Shown here: one piece after another, positions 14,836 through 55,929 of the stretch
How the letters are laid out: each line of letters starts with the position of its first letter
Position numbering within the stretch: the stretch's first letter is position 1
NCBI GenBank assembly: GCA_947463325.1
Contig: CANHQT010000007.1
Span: forward strand, 1 to 64,000
Origin: Sphingomonadaceae bacterium
GTDB lineage: Bacteria; Pseudomonadota; Alphaproteobacteria; Sphingomonadales; Sphingomonadaceae
Reading direction: 5' to 3'
Length of the DNA: 64,000 bases
Program-made: the position numbers and the translations under genes
Notes under the pieces: model-generated
The model's database searches: none
What the model saw: only the letters and a program-made list of their open reading frames with translations
Told to the model about the DNA's origin: nothing

Positions 14836-16830
14836 CTAACCCTCGATCTTCGAGAAATCCGCGACGGCGTGGCAGGCGTCACGGAAGCGGGAGAGGAGCG
14901 AGAGGCGGAAGGCGCGGATCGCGGGGTCGGGATCGTTGACCATCACGCCATCAAAGAAGGCATCGATCGGCGCGCGCAGCGAGGCAAGCGCAATCATCGC
15001 GGCAGTGAAATCCTCCGCGCCGACGGCCGCGCGAGCGGCAGGCTCGGCGGTATCGAGGGCGGCGAGCAGTGCGGCCTCTTCTGGCGACGGCCCTTGCAGC
15101 GGCTCTGTCCCATCAGCATCCGACTGCTTGAGGATGTTCGCGGCGCGCTTGTAGCCAGCGAGCAGATTGGCGCCGTCGCCGGTCTCCATGAACGCCTGCA
15201 GCGCCTTCACCCGCGCGAGCAGGCGAACAACAAGGTTTTCGGCGCCTGCCCCGACTACCGCTTCGATAAGGTCGTGGCTGATACCTGCTTCGCGCTGTTG
15301 AACCTTTAACCGGTCAACGATGAAATCCCATTGCCCGTGCGCGTCACCAATCGGATAGCGCACATTGTTGGTCGTCATGAGCGCAATAATGCCCAGCCCC
15401 GCCCTCCGTAGAGCGAACGGATCTTTAGACCCGGTCGGTTGCATGTCGACACCGAAGAAGCTGTGGAAGGTATCCAGTTTGTCAGCGAGCGACACCGCCA
15501 CCGTGACCGGCGCGGTGGGGACATCATCGCCCTGCCCGACCGGCTTGTAGTGATCGCGGATCGCGTCGGCGACCGCATCGGGCTCGCCCTGTGCGCGGGC
15601 GTAGTAGCCACCCATGATGCCCTGAAGCTCGGGGAACTCGCCGACCATGCCAGTGACAAGATCGGCCTTGGCAAGGCGGGCCGCGCGTTCAGCCTGGTCG
15701 GGATCGCCCTTGACGATACCTTCTTCGACCAGCCAGCGGGCGAGCTTTGCTAACCGTTCCACCTTGTCGGCGACGGTGCCGAGCTTCTCATGGAAGGTGA
15801 TGCGGTCGAGCTTTTTCGCCTGATCGTCGAGCGCGACCTTGAGGTCCTGTTCCCAGAAGAATTTGGCGTCGGAGAGGCGGGCCGCCAGCACCTTTTCATT
15901 GCCCGCGACGATCGCTGCGCCGCCATCATTGGCGACGATGTTGGCGGTGCAGACGAAGGCGTTGGCGAGCTTGCCCGCGCTGTCATGACAGACAAAATAT
16001 TTCTGGTTCACGCGCGCGGTCAGCTGGATCACCTCCTGCGGCACCGCGAGGTAGGCGGGGTCGAAGCGGCCGAGCATCGGCACCGGCCATTCGGTAAGGC
16101 CGGCATTTTCTGCGACCAGCCCTTCATCCTCGACTAGGGTGAGGCCCGCCGCACTCGCCGCGGCGCGCGCGCCATCGCGGATGATGGCGCAACGTTCGGA
16201 GAAATGGACGATGACATGCGCGACGCGCAGCGTTTCGACATAGGCGCCCGCGTTGGCGATCTCAACCGGACCGCTGCTGTGGAAGCGGTGCCCCATGGTG
16301 GTGCGGCCGCTGACAATCCCGTCAACCTCGCACGGCACGACCTGGTCACCGAGCAGCGCGACAATGCCCTGCAGCGGGCGCACCCAGCGCAGGCTCTCGG
16401 TCGAGATGGAGGCCGCACCCCAGCGCTGCGATTTCGGCCAAGGAAAGGCGCGAATGATGGCGGGGATCGCTTCGGCGAGGACATCAGCCGTCTTGCGGCC
16501 GGGCTTATCGACAACCGCGAAATAAACGCCGTCGCTCTCGACCAGCTGATCCTGTGTGAGGCCGACCTTGCGCAGGAAACCTTCCATCGCCTGCGGCGGC
16601 GCGCCGACCTTCGGCCCCTTGGTTTCTTCCGAGACCGCTGCGGTTTCGAGCGGCAGACCGGTGGCGATCAGCGCGAGGCGGCGCGGCGTGGCGAATGTCT
16701 CGACACTCGCAGCGGCGAGACCGGCCTTGGCCAGCGCGTCAGCGAACAGGCGGGCGAGATCCTCCTTCGCCTTGGCTTGCATGCGCGCGGGGATTTCCTC
16801 GGAGCGGAGTTCGAGCAGGAAGTCGGTCAT
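14836..16830 (-). CDS. glyS: glycyl-tRNA synthetase beta subunit
   Basis: A 664-residue beta chain of the bacterial alpha2beta2 glycyl-tRNA synthetase. The opening FLLELRSEEIPARMQ and the internal EFPELQGIMGGYYA are family signatures, and the C-terminal third contains the anticodon-binding-like region. It charges tRNA-Gly together with GlyQ. Two tandem ATGs (16833 and 16830) overlap the glyQ stop. The second gives the family-typical first residues MTDFLLEL, so I use it. Coupled translation keeps the subunits equimolar. Confidence 0.96.
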   Translation of the reverse strand: MTDFLLELRSEEIPARMQAKAKEDLARLFADALAKAGLAAASVETFATPRRLALIATGLPLETAAVSEETKGPKVGAPPQAMEGFLRKVGLTQDQLVESDGVYFAVVDKPGRKTADVLAEAIPAIIRAFPWPKSQRWGAASISTESLRWVRPLQGIVALLGDQVVPCEVDGIVSGRTTMGHRFHSSGPVEIANAGAYVETLRVAHVIVHFSERCAIIRDGARAAASAAGLTLVEDEGLVAENAGLTEWPVPMLGRFDPAYLAVPQEVIQLTARVNQKYFVCHDSAGKLANAFVCTANIVANDGGAAIVAGNEKVLAARLSDAKFFWEQDLKVALDDQAKKLDRITFHEKLGTVADKVERLAKLARWLVEEGIVKGDPDQAERAARLAKADLVTGMVGEFPELQGIMGGYYARAQGEPDAVADAIRDHYKPVGQGDDVPTAPVTVAVSLADKLDTFHSFFGVDMQPTGSKDPFALRRAGLGIIALMTTNNVRYPIGDAHGQWDFIVDRLKVQQREAGISHDLIEAVVGAGAENLVVRLLARVKALQAFMETGDGANLLAGYKRAANILKQSDADGTEPLQGPSPEEAALLAALDTAEPAARAAVGAEDFTAAMIALASLRAPIDAFFDGVMVNDPDPAIRAFRLSLLSRFRDACHAVADFSKIEG

Positions 16831-17717
16831 CATTCCGCCCACCCGTTCTTGGCCATCCACGCTTCGCAGCTGCCCTTGGCGAGATCCCGCACGCGGCCGA
16901 TGTAGCTGGCGCGTTCCTGCACGCTGATAACGCCGCGCGCCTGAAGCAGGTTGAAGAGGTGGCTGGCCTCGATCGCCTGATCATAAGCGGCGAGCGGCAC
17001 GCCGGCTTCGATGCAGCGCTTGCACTCCGCCTCGGCGTGCTGGAAGCCCTTGAAGAGCTGGTCGGTGTCCGCGATTTCGAAATTATACTTCGAATGTTCG
17101 CGCTCATTTTCGAGGAAGACGTCACCGTAAGTGACACCCGCATCGTTGAACCGCAGGTCATAGACGCGGTCAACACCCTGGATGTACATCGCCAGCCGTT
17201 CGAGCCCATAGGTGAGCTCGCCCGCGACCGGCTTGCAATCAAAGCCGCCCACCTGCTGGAAATAGGTGAACTGCGTCACCTCCATCCCGTCACACCATAC
17301 TTCCCAGCCGAGACCCCATGCGCCGAGCGTGGGCGATTCCCAGTCATCCTCGACAAAGCGGATATCGTGCTTGAGCGGATCGATGCCGATGGCATCGAGG
17401 CTGCCGAGATAGAGTTCCTGCAGGTTCGCAGGGCTCGGCTTCATGATCACCTGATATTGGTAGTAGTGCTGCAGCCGGTTCGGATTTTCGCCATAGCGGC
17501 CGTCGGTCGGGCGGCGCGACGGCTGCACATAGGCAGCGTTCCAGGGGTTCGGCCCCAACGCACGCAGCGTGGTCGCCGGGTGAAACGTGCCTGCGCCCAT
17601 GCGCATGTCATAAGGCTGAAGGATGACGCAGCCCTGCCGACCCCAATAGTCATGGAGTGTCAGGATCAGATCCTGAAAACTGAGCGGCCGGTTTCCGGAT
17701 GAATTGGCCCCGGACAA
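16830..17717 (-). CDS. glyQ: glycyl-tRNA synthetase alpha subunit
   Basis: A 295-residue class II synthetase catalytic chain with [39 protein letters not shown] and [14 protein letters not shown] signatures. It forms glycyl-adenylate and charges tRNA-Gly with GlyS. No ATG lies at the family N-terminus. I choose TTG at 17717 because AAGGAA (17729-17724) precedes it by 6 bases and the product matches the usual 290-305 residues. A TTG at 17807 would add a 30-residue low-complexity extension. It is first gene of glyQ-glyS-ppdK. Confidence 0.93.
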
Positions 17718-17752
17718 GACGGATTCCTTCGCAGGTGCAACAGATGCCCCGC

Positions 17753-17809
17753 CTTTGGCGAAGGGACTGGCGGGGGTCAAGGCAAGGCCGCCTAAACCGT
17801 TCGCCAAAG
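17753..17809. repeat. 10-bp inverted repeat upstream of glyQ
   Basis: CTTTGGCGAA (17753-17762) and TTCGCCAAAG (17800-17809) are perfect complements separated by 37 bases. They fall within the probable glyQ 5' leader and could form a hairpin close to the ribosome binding site. The loop is C- and G-rich (GGGACTGGCGGGGG). It is not a recognisable T-box, as no specifier or antiterminator consensus is seen. Confidence 0.5.
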
Positions 17810-17842
17810 AGACAAAGATATACGACTTTTTGTCAGGTTATA

Positions 17843-17872
17843 TTGACAATTTCTGCTGCCTGAACCAGATAA
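17843..17872 (+). promoter_or_regulatory. candidate promoter driving the structured leader
   Basis: A perfect TTGACA (17843-17848) is followed 17-18 bases later by a weak -10 (CAGATA or AGATAA at 17866-17872). A start would fall near 17880, exactly where the first strong RNA hairpin begins. The surrounding 17811-17872 is AT-rich, unlike the flanks, and probably also holds the divergent glyQ promoter. Confidence 0.45.
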
Positions 17873-17880
17873 GGGGAGAC

Positions 17881-18024
17881 GACTGTTCCGGCGGGCTGAC
17901 AGGACGCGTCGGACAGTCTAGCCATTCCTGCTAGGGATCATCGGCTTTGCGCGAGGGTCTCCGCTGTTGGCAGGTTACCTGGCCGGAACCCGCCAACCCC
18001 CCGATGTGGGTTCCGGCCATTTTT
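17881..18024 (+). ncRNA. structured leader RNA or small RNA of unknown class
   Basis: This 144-base stretch has no plausible reading frame but dense complementarity. Hairpin P1 pairs 17881-17890 with 17910-17918 (nine pairs, one bulge). P2 pairs CTAGC at 17918 with GCTAG at 17930. A third hairpin (17966-17997) pairs GTTGGC with GCCAAC and GGTT with AACC. This third hairpin uses the same bases as the 5' arm of the terminator at 17980-18024, so the two cannot coexist. That switch design suggests a cis-acting attenuator for the gene at 18044. A free-standing small RNA with its own terminator is the alternative. It does not match the riboswitch classes I can recall. Confidence 0.5.
17980..18024 (+). 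terminator. strong intrinsic terminator upstream of the membrane-protein gene
   Basis: TGGCCGGAACCC (17980-17991) and GGGTTCCGGCCA (18008-18019) form a perfect 12-bp stem with a 16-base loop, followed by TTTTT. It lies only 20 bases before the next start codon on the same strand and has no plus-strand gene before it, so it must end a leader or small RNA. Confidence 0.88.
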
Positions 18025-18043
18025 GTGATAGAGGGTGCGTGCC

Positions 18044-18487
18044 ATGGCCCGTTTTAACCGATATCGCCTCTATTTCAGACTGATGGACGTCGCACTACTG
18101 CTGACGCTGGCGGGAATCGTTCAGCTTGTCGTCGAGCCGGAAGCGCTGCGCCCTGAATTCGTGCCGGGGCCACTCCACCTCGCGGTCGGCATCGGCAGCG
18201 TGCTGCTGACCACATTCCTTATGTTCGCAGGCTTCATGCGCGATGAATATGCGCAGGCCTGCTGGGAACAGGCGGCGGCGACCACGGTCAAAGGAATGGT
18301 GATCATCCCCTTTGTAACGCTGTTCATCAGCGGCCTGATCGCCGGGTTCAATGCCGAGCCGGGTGCGACCCCCGGCCCATCCCCGCTCGAAGCGGTCAAT
18401 GGCGCGGTCATATTCGCCTGGGGCTGGAGCCTGTTGCTGACGCTGTTTGTGCTTTCATTCCAATGGCATCGCTGGCGGGGTCGTTAA
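18044..18487 (+). CDS. four-helix membrane protein of unknown function
   Basis: A 147-residue integral membrane protein with four predicted helices at about 14-30, 46-67, 86-108 and 118-140. The N-terminus is basic (ARFNRYRLYFR), so it probably faces the cytosol. No catalytic or transport motif is recognised. ATG at 18044 is favoured over GTG at 18035 because GAGGG at 18031-18035 is then about 8 bases away. The XRE gene follows with no gap, so the two form a pair. The preceding attenuator-like RNA suggests conditional expression. A membrane partner next to a compact XRE regulator is a recurrent bacterial arrangement, but its role is not known. Confidence 0.75.
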   Translation: MARFNRYRLYFRLMDVALLLTLAGIVQLVVEPEALRPEFVPGPLHLAVGIGSVLLTTFLMFAGFMRDEYAQACWEQAAATTVKGMVIIPFVTLFISGLIAGFNAEPGATPGPSPLEAVNGAVIFAWGWSLLLTLFVLSFQWHRWRGR

Positions 18488-18685
18488 GTGAAGAACCGCC
18501 TCCGCGTCCTCAGAGCCGAGCATGAATGGAGCCAGGCCGATCTGGCCGAGCGACTGGGCGTTTCGCGCCAGGCGGTCAACGCCATCGAGACAGGCAAACA
18601 TGATCCTTCTCTGCCGCTCGCATTCCGCATTGCCCGTCTCTTCGGACAATCGATCGAACAAATATTCGACGATCTCGCCGACTGA
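18488..18685 (+). CDS. compact XRE-family transcriptional regulator
   Basis: A 65-residue protein that is little more than one helix-turn-helix domain (WSQADLAERLGVSRQAVNAI, about residues 14-33) and a helical tail. The GTG start follows the stop of the membrane gene directly, with no intervening bases. Such short XRE proteins (the ETGKHDPSLPLAFRIARLF signature) usually repress their own operon. With the adjacent membrane protein it could act as an autoregulated pair. The DNA site and signal are unknown. Confidence 0.88.
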   Translation: MKNRLRVLRAEHEWSQADLAERLGVSRQAVNAIETGKHDPSLPLAFRIARLFGQSIEQIFDDLAD

Positions 18686-18715: not shown

Positions 18716-19645
18716 ATGAAGACTAGCATTACTATCCGTCGGCTGCTTACCGCGGCTGCGATATGCCTTGCACAGCCTGCCCTAGCGCAGAGCGAAGCCG
18801 CACCGGCGGCAACGCCTGCCGCGTCAGAAGGCACCGACGCCGATCCCGCGCTTTGGGTGGTACGCGACGCGGACACGACCATTTACCTGTTCGGGACCAT
18901 CCACCTGCTGCGCCCCGGCCTCAGCTGGTTCGATGAAGCGGTGCGGGAGGCATTTGACGCGTCAGACGAGCTCAAGGTCGAGGTTGTGATGCCGGCTGAC
19001 CCCACATCACTGGCTCAAGCCTTCACCGCCGCCGGCACCTATCCGGAGGGCGTTACACTACAGTCACGGATGACCGAGGAGCAGCGCGCCGCCTATCGCG
19101 CTGCCATCGCCCCGACGGGTATTCCGCCCGAAGCCATCGACTCGCTTGAGCCGTGGTTTAGCGGTTTGCAGCTGGCGCTGGCCATCTATGCGCAAATGGG
19201 TTTCCAGCCGGGCGCCGGTGCCGAAGCCGTCCTGAAAGAGGCAGCAGGTAGCGCGGGCAAGCCGGTCAGCGGTTTCGAGACGGTCGAAGAACAGATCACC
19301 TTCCTCGATAGCACGCCCGAGAGCGAGCAAATCGCCGGGCTGATCCAATTCTTCGAGCGCGGGCGCGAGATGCCGGCCTATGTCGAGCGGCTGCTGGCGA
19401 GTTGGACGAGCGGATCCCCCGATGACACGGCGGCGATCATGAATGAAGCGATGGCGACCAGCCCCGAGACGGCACGTATCCTGCTGACTGATCGCAACCG
19501 CCGCTGGGCCGACACATTGAAGGCGCGGATGGACCAGCCTGGCACGGTTTTCGTCGCAGTCGGTGCTGGCCATCTGGCCGGCGAAGGCAGTGTCCAGCAG
19601 TTCTTGGCCGAACACGGGCACACTGCTGAGCGGATCGCCTATTAA
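18716..19645 (+). CDS. TraB/GumN family protein, secreted
   Basis: A 309-residue exported protein. A signal peptide (about 1-24, ending ALAQ) is followed by a TraB/GumN (Tiki-like) domain. The first GX2H-type motif is FGTIHLL (residues 59-65) and the last is VGAGHLAGEGS near the C-terminus, and these conserved glutamate/histidine motifs are thought to form a metal-protease-like site in the superfamily. The substrate is unknown. A ribosome site (GAAGGA) lies 8 or so bases before the ATG. It overlaps the second paralogue by one base (TAATG), so the two are co-translated. Confidence 0.87.
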   Translation: MKTSITIRRLLTAAAICLAQPALAQSEAAPAATPAASEGTDADPALWVVRDADTTIYLFGTIHLLRPGLSWFDEAVREAFDASDELKVEVVMPADPTSLAQAFTAAGTYPEGVTLQSRMTEEQRAAYRAAIAPTGIPPEAIDSLEPWFSGLQLALAIYAQMGFQPGAGAEAVLKEAAGSAGKPVSGFETVEEQITFLDSTPESEQIAGLIQFFERGREMPAYVERLLASWTSGSPDDTAAIMNEAMATSPETARILLTDRNRRWADTLKARMDQPGTVFVAVGAGHLAGEGSVQQFLAEHGHTAERIAY

Positions 19646-20541
19646 TGCAGCGCATGCGGCGGGCATGGCTGGCGCCGGTTTTGGCCTGCGCGGCCATGCT
19701 GGCTGCCTGCGCGCCCGCTGCACCCCCGATTGTCGAGGGCCAAGCCCGGCCGGCGGTGTGGGAAGCAAGGCTGGGCGAGACGCGGCTGATCCTGTTTGGC
19801 AGCATTCACCAACTGCCCGCGGAACTGGACTGGTTCGACAGCGTCCTCGCGCGCGAGGTTGCATCAGCGGACCGGCTGTATCTGGAGATTGCACCGGAGG
19901 AAGCAGCAGGGGCGCCTGCTCTGTTTGACGCGATCGCCGATGATGAACCGGTGGCTCCGCTGGACCGGCGCATCGGCCTGACCGCGACAGATCGGGCGCT
20001 GAGTCTCCTGCCCGGAATAGACGAGGCAGCGATCGACGGGACCGAAAGCTGGGCGCTGGCCCTGATGATCGGCAATGCCATCGCGGCCAACAACGGCCTA
20101 TCCGGCGATGCAGGCGTCGAAAGCCGGCTGACCACGGCGTTCGAACGGTCAGGAAAGCCCGTCACCGGCCTTGAAACTGCACGCGACCAGCTGAGCCTGT
20201 TCGATACCCTCGACCCTGCCGTTCAAGATGCGATGCTGGTGCGCGCCATCAACCGCAGCGAGGGCGCACGCGAGCGGACCCGCGACCTTATCCGCGCCTG
20301 GGCGCGCGGCGATGTGGCAGCCATCGGCGTGGCGGCTGCAAGTGAGCTGTCCGAATTCCCCGCGCTGGAAACGGGCCTAATCAATGGGCGCAATCGAGTC
20401 TGGGCAGACCAATTGGCAGCGCAGGCGCAGACAATCAGCGGAACGGCGATCGTTGCCGTCGGCGCCGGTCATCTGGCGGGCGACGGTTCGCTCGATCGAC
20501 TGCTCGCCGAGCGCGGCTTTACGGTGCGGCGGATCCAGTAA
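19645..20541 (+). CDS. TraB/GumN family lipoprotein
   Basis: A 298-residue paralogue of the preceding gene. The N-terminus is a lipoprotein signal with lipobox LAAC (Cys22), whereas its neighbour has a type I signal peptide. The TraB domain motifs recur as FGSIHQL and VGAGHLAGDGS, but the two proteins are strongly diverged elsewhere. The role is unknown. A periplasmic, membrane-tethered hydrolase is inferred from the family. The 3' end overlaps the convergent hydrolase gene by 23 bp. Confidence 0.87.
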   Translation: MQRMRRAWLAPVLACAAMLAACAPAAPPIVEGQARPAVWEARLGETRLILFGSIHQLPAELDWFDSVLAREVASADRLYLEIAPEEAAGAPALFDAIADDEPVAPLDRRIGLTATDRALSLLPGIDEAAIDGTESWALALMIGNAIAANNGLSGDAGVESRLTTAFERSGKPVTGLETARDQLSLFDTLDPAVQDAMLVRAINRSEGARERTRDLIRAWARGDVAAIGVAAASELSEFPALETGLINGRNRVWADQLAAQAQTISGTAIVAVGAGHLAGDGSLDRLLAERGFTVRRIQ

Positions 20542-54762: not shown

Positions 54763-55929
54763 TCATCCTGCCCGCATTCGCGCGATAAAGAAACCGTCTG
54801 TCGCATCATGGGCTGGAGTGAGGATGATCCCGGCTCCAGCGGGCCTGCCTGCCGACACCGGTACCGGCTCTGGCACGAAACGGGGGTGGCGGGCGATGAA
54901 CGCACGGACCTGCCCTTCGCCCTCGGCGCTGGTAAGGGCGCAGACGGCATAGACGAGCACTCCGCCCGGGCGGACTAGCGGGGCAGCAACATCGAGCACA
55001 TGCGCCTGAAGCGCCAGCAAACGGTCCAAACGGTCGCGGCTAAGGCGCCAGCGCGCTTCGGGATTGCGGCGCCAGGTGCCGCTGCCCGAACAGGGCGCAT
55101 CGACCAGCACAACATTGGCGCTGCCTTCAAGATCAACCAGCGCAGCGGCTTCACGCCCCGGATCGAGCAGACGGGTTTCAACCGCTGCCCCAGCACGTGC
55201 AGCACGCGGCGACAATTCAGACAGGCGACGACGATCGGTATCGCAGGCGATCAAGCGGCCTTCGCTAGTCATAGCGACTGCGAGCGCGAGTGTTTTTCCG
55301 CCGCCCCCTGCGCACAGATCAATGACGGTCATGCCGGGACGCGCGGCACAGGCCGCTGCAATCCACTGGCTGCCGGCATCCTGCACTTCGATCGCGCCGG
55401 CAAGCATAGCCGGATGATCAGCGAGCGGCGTGTCTGCGGGCAGTCGCAGCCCTTCAAGCGGGGCGGGCAAGGGCTCGCCCTCCGGCAATTCGATGCCAAC
55501 CGCACGGGCACGGTTGATTCTGAGATCGAGCGGCGCGCGTTCCAGCAACGCCGCGCCTTCGGTACTGTCAATGCGCGGATCGAGCAGTGGCATCAGCCAG
55601 ACTGGCAGAGGGCCTCCGTCAGCGCGGGGCTCGCTTGCAGAAATAGCGTCCGGAGCGCGCGGCTCTCCCGTAAACAAGGCGGCAAGATCACCGTCACCGT
55701 CGGCCAGCGCCACCATCGCCGCGCGCCCGCTCGCTGGACGCTCGCCGAAGCGGCGAATTGCTGTCCAGGCGAGATCACGGATCGCCCGCCGGTCCTTGGA
55801 GCCCGCGTAGCGCCTTTCCTTGAAGAAGCGTGTGGCAATGACATCTGCAGCAGCCCCGCCATCACGGGCGGCGGCAATGACGGCATCGAGTAGCTCGATA
55901 GCAGTTTGGACGCGGGCAGCAGGGGTCAT
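54763..55929 (-). CDS. RsmB-like rRNA (cytosine-C5) methyltransferase
   Basis: A 388-residue RsmB/NOL1/NOP2-type methyltransferase. SAM-binding VIDLCAGGGGKTLAL, the PC motif DAPCSGSGTWRRNP and catalytic cysteine in VYAVCAL are visible. An N-terminal NusB-like domain (about 1-60) is suggested. It probably methylates 16S C967 or a related cytosine. The exact site is inferred from the family. It follows guaB by 66 bp. Confidence 0.88.
   Translation of the reverse strand: MTPAARVQTAIELLDAVIAAARDGGAAADVIATRFFKERRYAGSKDRRAIRDLAWTAIRRFGERPASGRAAMVALADGDGDLAALFTGEPRAPDAISASEPRADGGPLPVWLMPLLDPRIDSTEGAALLERAPLDLRINRARAVGIELPEGEPLPAPLEGLRLPADTPLADHPAMLAGAIEVQDAGSQWIAAACAARPGMTVIDLCAGGGGKTLALAVAMTSEGRLIACDTDRRRLSELSPRAARAGAAVETRLLDPGREAAALVDLEGSANVVLVDAPCSGSGTWRRNPEARWRLSRDRLDRLLALQAHVLDVAAPLVRPGGVLVYAVCALTSAEGEGQVRAFIARHPRFVPEPVPVSAGRPAGAGIILTPAHDATDGFFIARMRAG

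Follow-up and report, generated by a model that had tools for sequence, protein, structure and literature searches.

A putative fixed terminator in the leader of a membrane-protein/XRE gene cluster that has probably lost urcA, and a covarying RNA element 3' of urcA in Sphingopyxis

The non-coding stretch at positions 17843-18043 of the window (the whole 64,000-nucleotide stretch of DNA analysed here) was originally predicted to be a structured RNA with its own promoter and terminator ahead of a membrane-protein/XRE gene pair, a description that our analyses uphold. We propose that it is the leader of this gene pair, left after the loss of urcA, in which the hairpin would act as a fixed terminator or attenuator. 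We put the probability of this reading, in which the mechanism is inferred, at about 0.6. The evidence for it includes synteny, a promoter that tracks the cluster, reciprocal matches of two covariance models (R2 and R3), an ungapped PSSM, five compensatory changes, the absence of UrcA and the T tail of the window. This checkable evolutionary account takes the place of a guess at a riboswitch, and the comparison has also revealed, 3' of urcA in Sphingopyxis, an RNA element that is conserved, covaries and has no Rfam family. The features discussed are listed in Table 1.

Table 1. Features of the leader and its surroundings (positions in the window)
Feature	Position	Strand	Remarks
glyQ (divergent, synteny anchor)	16830-17807	-	Pfam PF02091; start at 17807
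Cluster promoter	17834-17871	+	TGTCAGGT half-site at 17834-17841, then -35 and -10
-35 element, TTGACA	17843-17848	+	Read directly
-10 element, CAGATA	17866-17871	+	17-nt spacer from -35
Strong leader hairpin	17881-17918	+	-20.9 kcal/mol (folding)
Diverged homologue of post-urcA two-hairpin element	17938-18022	+	Best R3 match in the window, ungapped
Proposed antiterminator stem	17966-17997	+	-15.4 kcal/mol (folding)
Intrinsic terminator, corresponding to element hairpin B	17980-18024	+	Perfect 12-bp stem at 17980-18019, 16-nt C-rich loop, T5
Membrane protein, four hydrophobic segments	18044-18487	+	ATG at 18044, 147 aa; segments judged by eye
XRE regulator	18488-18685	+	65 aa; Pfam HTH_3, E 4e-16
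Two GumN/TraB-family genes, conserved cluster end	18716-20541	+	PF01963 in both; same order in relatives

The TTGACA box with which the region was said to begin is present, accompanied by a -10 element at a 17-nt spacing, and conservation among related loci backs this promoter. The perfect 12-bp terminator followed by TTTTT was also borne out. Its stem folds with -27.4 kcal/mol, the five T residues at 18020-18024 follow directly, and a GC-rich stem with a U tract immediately 3' is what characterises an intrinsic terminator. This terminator lies far above chance: a perfect 12-bp stem followed by TTTT occurs a single time in the 64 kb, counting both strands, and in none of 10 dinucleotide shuffles. 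The folding z-score of the 179-nt stretch is -2.56. Two strong hairpins had been described further upstream, of which the one at 17881-17918 is indeed strong, but the other, at 17918-17934, is weak (-5.0 kcal/mol) and has a probability of approximately zero in the full-length ensemble. Where the window has the hairpin at 17881-17918, its relatives have the urcA 5' UTR and gene. Comparison of 17873-17933 with the relatives' 5' UTR gave no similarity above shuffles, and a decayed urcA 5' UTR or start within 17866-17945 was rejected on the same ground.

Downstream of the terminator, the predicted four-helix membrane protein and compact XRE regulator are both recognisable (Table 1). The sole Pfam match of the membrane protein is a weak one to SLAC1, below the cut-off of that family. 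Its relatives are 26-37% identical and nearly all adjoin an XRE gene in the same type of cluster, and XRE relatives in such clusters are 70-85% identical. Since blastn found no close DNA relatives of the stretch among 60 relatives, and a search for the membrane protein in named genomes found none, a synteny route was used: of 80 genomes of the same genus, Sphingopyxis, 79 gave a glyQ position, and the flanks of glyQ were read. The conserved order is glyQS (divergent), promoter, urcA, two-hairpin element, (membrane protein), XRE, (DUF) and gumN. The membrane protein before XRE is present only sometimes, the DUF after XRE is a membrane protein too, and the gumN position corresponds to the two GumN/TraB genes. 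Clusters of a similar kind are also present in other genera of the family. At loci L052, L059, L060, L064, L066, L067 and L068 from such genera, a strong hairpin of different sequence lies 3' of the cluster urcA.

Thirty-six loci carry urcA, 32 (the window included) have XRE without urcA, and several have neither. The window retains the promoter, the element, the membrane protein, XRE and gumN; urcA is missing. No match to the UrcA family was found in the whole 2.3-Mb genome of the window, and 75 of the 80 genomes of the genus contain at least one. Genomes G090 and G016 are two others in which an UrcA family protein was not found.

The promoter offers a second line of evidence. The motif TGTCAGGTnTTGTTGACATAGTCAGCGAATCGCGACATATAGTCA, with 44 positions, of which 17 form the core TGTCAGGT...TTGACA, is matched at 27 or more positions in every glyQ-adjacent XRE-cluster locus except the window, where 25 of 44 positions match overall and the core is matched at 15 of 17. 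Loci without the XRE cluster at glyQ reach at most 23/44 overall and 12/17 in the core. Because the motif tracks the XRE cluster, and the window keeps this much of it, the promoter ahead of the RNA is that of the cluster itself in a partly degraded form. TTGACA...CATATA is flanked by the half-sites TGTCAGGT and ACCTGACA, each the reverse complement of the other. The inverted half-site motif is found at 17834-17848 in the window and also in the glyQ-divergent promoters of L004-L034 and L070-L113. Its presence with the XRE cluster and absence without it make the TGTCAGGT/ACCTGACA motif a likely XRE operator, and the reverse complementarity of the half-sites suggests autoregulation, with the XRE protein as the probable autoregulator of the cluster.

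In the cluster loci examined, strong hairpins lie 3' of urcA. When a covariance model was built from the window only (R2), its best non-self matches in the relatives were to this post-urcA stretch; its best non-self genome match (E 0.004), which fell in a genome of another family, was treated as chance. An alignment of 34 post-urcA stretches from relatives was then the basis of model R3, from which the window was excluded. The element consists of two hairpins, A, in which the CUCCCCGG loop hardly varies, and B, GGCUGGAGCGCC...GGCGCUCCAGUC; example copies are L022:896-979:-, L070:563-647:+ and L093:623-706:+ (set A3). Across the 34 relatives pairing is possible in 96.7% of cells, and double changes occur in 26 cells against 5.7 in shuffles (0 of 500 as high), a comparison made among related sequences. 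C-rich motifs are present in loop B of 21 of the 34 relatives, as compared with 13 in shuffled loops (0/500 as high). In the relatives the CUCCCC loop hardly varies, which suggests that the element is more than a terminator. After hairpin B, the window has 6 T in 8 positions and the relatives only 1-4 in 8, a poor U tract. Strong R3 matches occur once per genome, at the glyQ locus, and a multi-copy sRNA family was therefore rejected.

The Rfam check of the region yielded weak sub-threshold matches and none at the gathering threshold, in agreement with the original statement that no known class could be recognised. Likewise, twelve loci from relatives, eight of them with the Sphingopyxis element, gave no match at the gathering threshold, and no description of the post-urcA element was found in the literature searched. 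The 6S RNA, which had been named as a possible refutation, gave no RF00013 match in the region, and this identity was rejected, as the likely 6S RNA of the genome lies elsewhere, at positions 3321-3478 of contig C22 (L001), where it scores 43.4 bits, just below the Rfam cut-off of 46.4. Judged from these comparisons, the Sphingopyxis post-urcA element is a modest new covarying RNA motif without an Rfam family match, and it is not a riboswitch class.

Model R3 finds its best window match at 17938-18022, with 28.1 bits (E 2.8e-4 in 64 kb and 1.8e-6 in a 401-base neighbourhood). This is the syntenic place, after the glyQ-divergent promoter and ahead of the XRE genes. It should be noted that 28.1 bits is marginal genome-wide, and filtered genome scans did not list this position. 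For this reason, the case for homology rests on position and on an ungapped PSSM, which served as a control against attraction to GC-rich hairpins. In this control, position 17938 is the single best of approximately 128,000 positions, and none of 3000 shuffles reaches its score. Hairpin A and the linker suffice for this result, whereas the sequence of hairpin B does not reach significance when taken alone. When the terminator pairs are mapped onto the relatives, 89.5% of cells pair as compared with 31-55% in slid controls, and 5 of the 12 stem pairs are altered on both sides between the window and its relatives, that is, in a compensatory manner. In hairpin A of the window, 9 of 12 pairs are possible; its CUCCCCGG loop is altered, and it is absent from the predicted fold. 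We regard it as well supported that the window stretch is a homologue of the post-urcA element, although, unlike the copies of the relatives, it has no urcA directly upstream. A second R3 match in the window (54806-54881, 20.3 bits) lies inside a 388-aa open reading frame on the same strand and was taken as chance.

The element was not found in 36 other urcA-less or cluster-less loci; among the loci searched, the window alone keeps it. One of the urcA-less loci, L020 (genome G096), has a leader of approximately 200 nt at about 2515-2717, between the cluster promoter and XRE. No element copy is present there, and the leader contains an apparent relic of the urcA ribosome-binding site and start.

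The loss of urcA would also be consistent with a locus that was broken recently in a reduced genome, in which the promoter and hairpin are non-functional and have not yet eroded. The genome of the window measures 2.29 Mb as compared with mostly 3-5.7 Mb in the genus, and UrcA is gone from it; G090, likewise unusually small at 2.3 Mb, has lost the whole cluster. The degraded spacer motif of the promoter and the partial loss of hairpin A point in the same direction. However, all 12 bp of the terminator stem still match although its sequence has changed heavily, including the five compensatory pairs, the T tract and TTGACA are intact, and both the membrane protein and XRE retain open frames. We consider such a relic unlikely.

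The original prediction envisaged a riboswitch or attenuator in which terminator and antiterminator hairpins exclude each other. The two folds do overlap, in that the stem at 17966-17997 covers part of the 5' arm of the terminator, and by ensemble prediction the antiterminator could form before the 3' arm is synthesised (P ~0.98 for an RNA that stops at 18004), falling to P ~0 once that arm is made. What found no support is a function for this mutual exclusion. Pairing of the 60 nt upstream with the 5' arm of the terminator yields -9.7 kcal/mol for the native sequence and -10.0 +/- 3.0 kcal/mol after shuffling, and 48.7% of shuffles do as well as the native pairing (11.7% when 107 nt upstream are used). 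As shuffled upstream sequence pairs about equally well, the rival stem is what would be expected by chance for this composition. Compensatory changes had been expected in both stems; they are seen in the terminator, but the antiterminator pairs form in 40.7% of cells across the relatives, no better than slid controls (41-69%). In addition, no conserved aptamer-like domain was seen in 17873-17933. A riboswitch or attenuator of this kind is therefore highly improbable, and a ligand- or translation-operated switch is not needed, with no rival fold conserved.

Under the reading that we prefer, a fixed terminator left behind by urcA, a conserved Sphingopyxis transcription unit would have lost its first gene. 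The promoter and the element both persist while urcA is missing, so that the element now stands directly after the promoter. RNA polymerase would start near 17878 and make an untranslated RNA of approximately 150 nt. Most transcription would stop at the terminator, and a fixed fraction would read through into the membrane-protein and XRE genes, so that the hairpin would set a low, constitutive expression downstream. In the urcA-bearing relatives, the same hairpin may serve as an intercistronic partial terminator or as a 3'-end stabiliser. If the element is only a terminator, nothing more than common attenuation would be at work, in a small gene cluster that is probably autoregulated.

The main alternative is that the element is a small RNA, namely a two-hairpin RNA with a CUCCCC loop in the urcA 3' UTR of the relatives, which would have become free-standing in the window with its own promoter and terminator, and whose C-rich loop could pair with Shine-Dalgarno sequences. 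Three observations make it the main alternative: loop A (CUCCCCGG in the relatives) shows more conservation than a terminator would require, the loops are C-rich as in CcsR RNAs, with loop B exceeding its shuffled controls, and CcsR RNAs, too, share a transcript with a small-protein gene, from which they are processed (PMC10253847). The retention of the element in the window alone, with a good U tract, fits as well. In one relative, CcsR1 (RF02791) is matched with 21 bits against a gathering threshold of 65.3 (E 0.0023 over the full model). This match does not recur in two other relatives, RF02791 is not among the sub-threshold matches of the window, and in the window loop A is altered and hairpin A lies outside the predicted fold. 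We regard a small RNA as possible, though on the unlikely side. The more specific idea that an anti-Shine-Dalgarno-like RNA of the urcA 3' UTR outlived the lost gene, and is now a free-standing regulatory RNA with its own U-tract terminator, seems quite improbable. Should the small-RNA reading hold, the urcA-less genome would be a natural example of a 3'-UTR RNA that has become independent of its host gene.

Among known systems, the CcsR or cuckoo RNAs (RF02791; CIN1 locus, PMC10253847) resemble the element in being alphaproteobacterial, in having two stem-loops with C-rich loops and in sitting 3' of a small-protein gene in the same transcript. They differ in that the host gene of the element in the relatives is urcA (TIGR04433) and not DUF1127 (the window has neither as host gene), that the CCUCCUCCC motif is not general in the element and that there are no tandem copies. 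Because the Rfam support is weak and inconsistent between relatives, CcsR membership was rejected and none is claimed here. The 6C RNA (RF01066) also has C-rich hairpin loops and matches the window terminator weakly, with 27.9 bits against a threshold of 47, but its first hairpin is hardly matched and the GC-rich terminator stem carries most of the match. The urcA locus of Caulobacter (UzcRS regulon; PMC8963506) encodes the same protein family, TIGR04433, as the locus of the relatives, whereas its promoter motif is different and the window is without UrcA. Finally, intercistronic hairpins and partial intrinsic terminators in bacterial operons differ in that the hairpin of the window lies in a leader without a preceding gene, and that the element of the relatives adds a further hairpin, whose CUCCCC loop is conserved; they share with it a GC-rich stem placed after a promoter-proximal unit and ahead of downstream genes and, in the window, a T5 tail, an arrangement that would reduce downstream expression.
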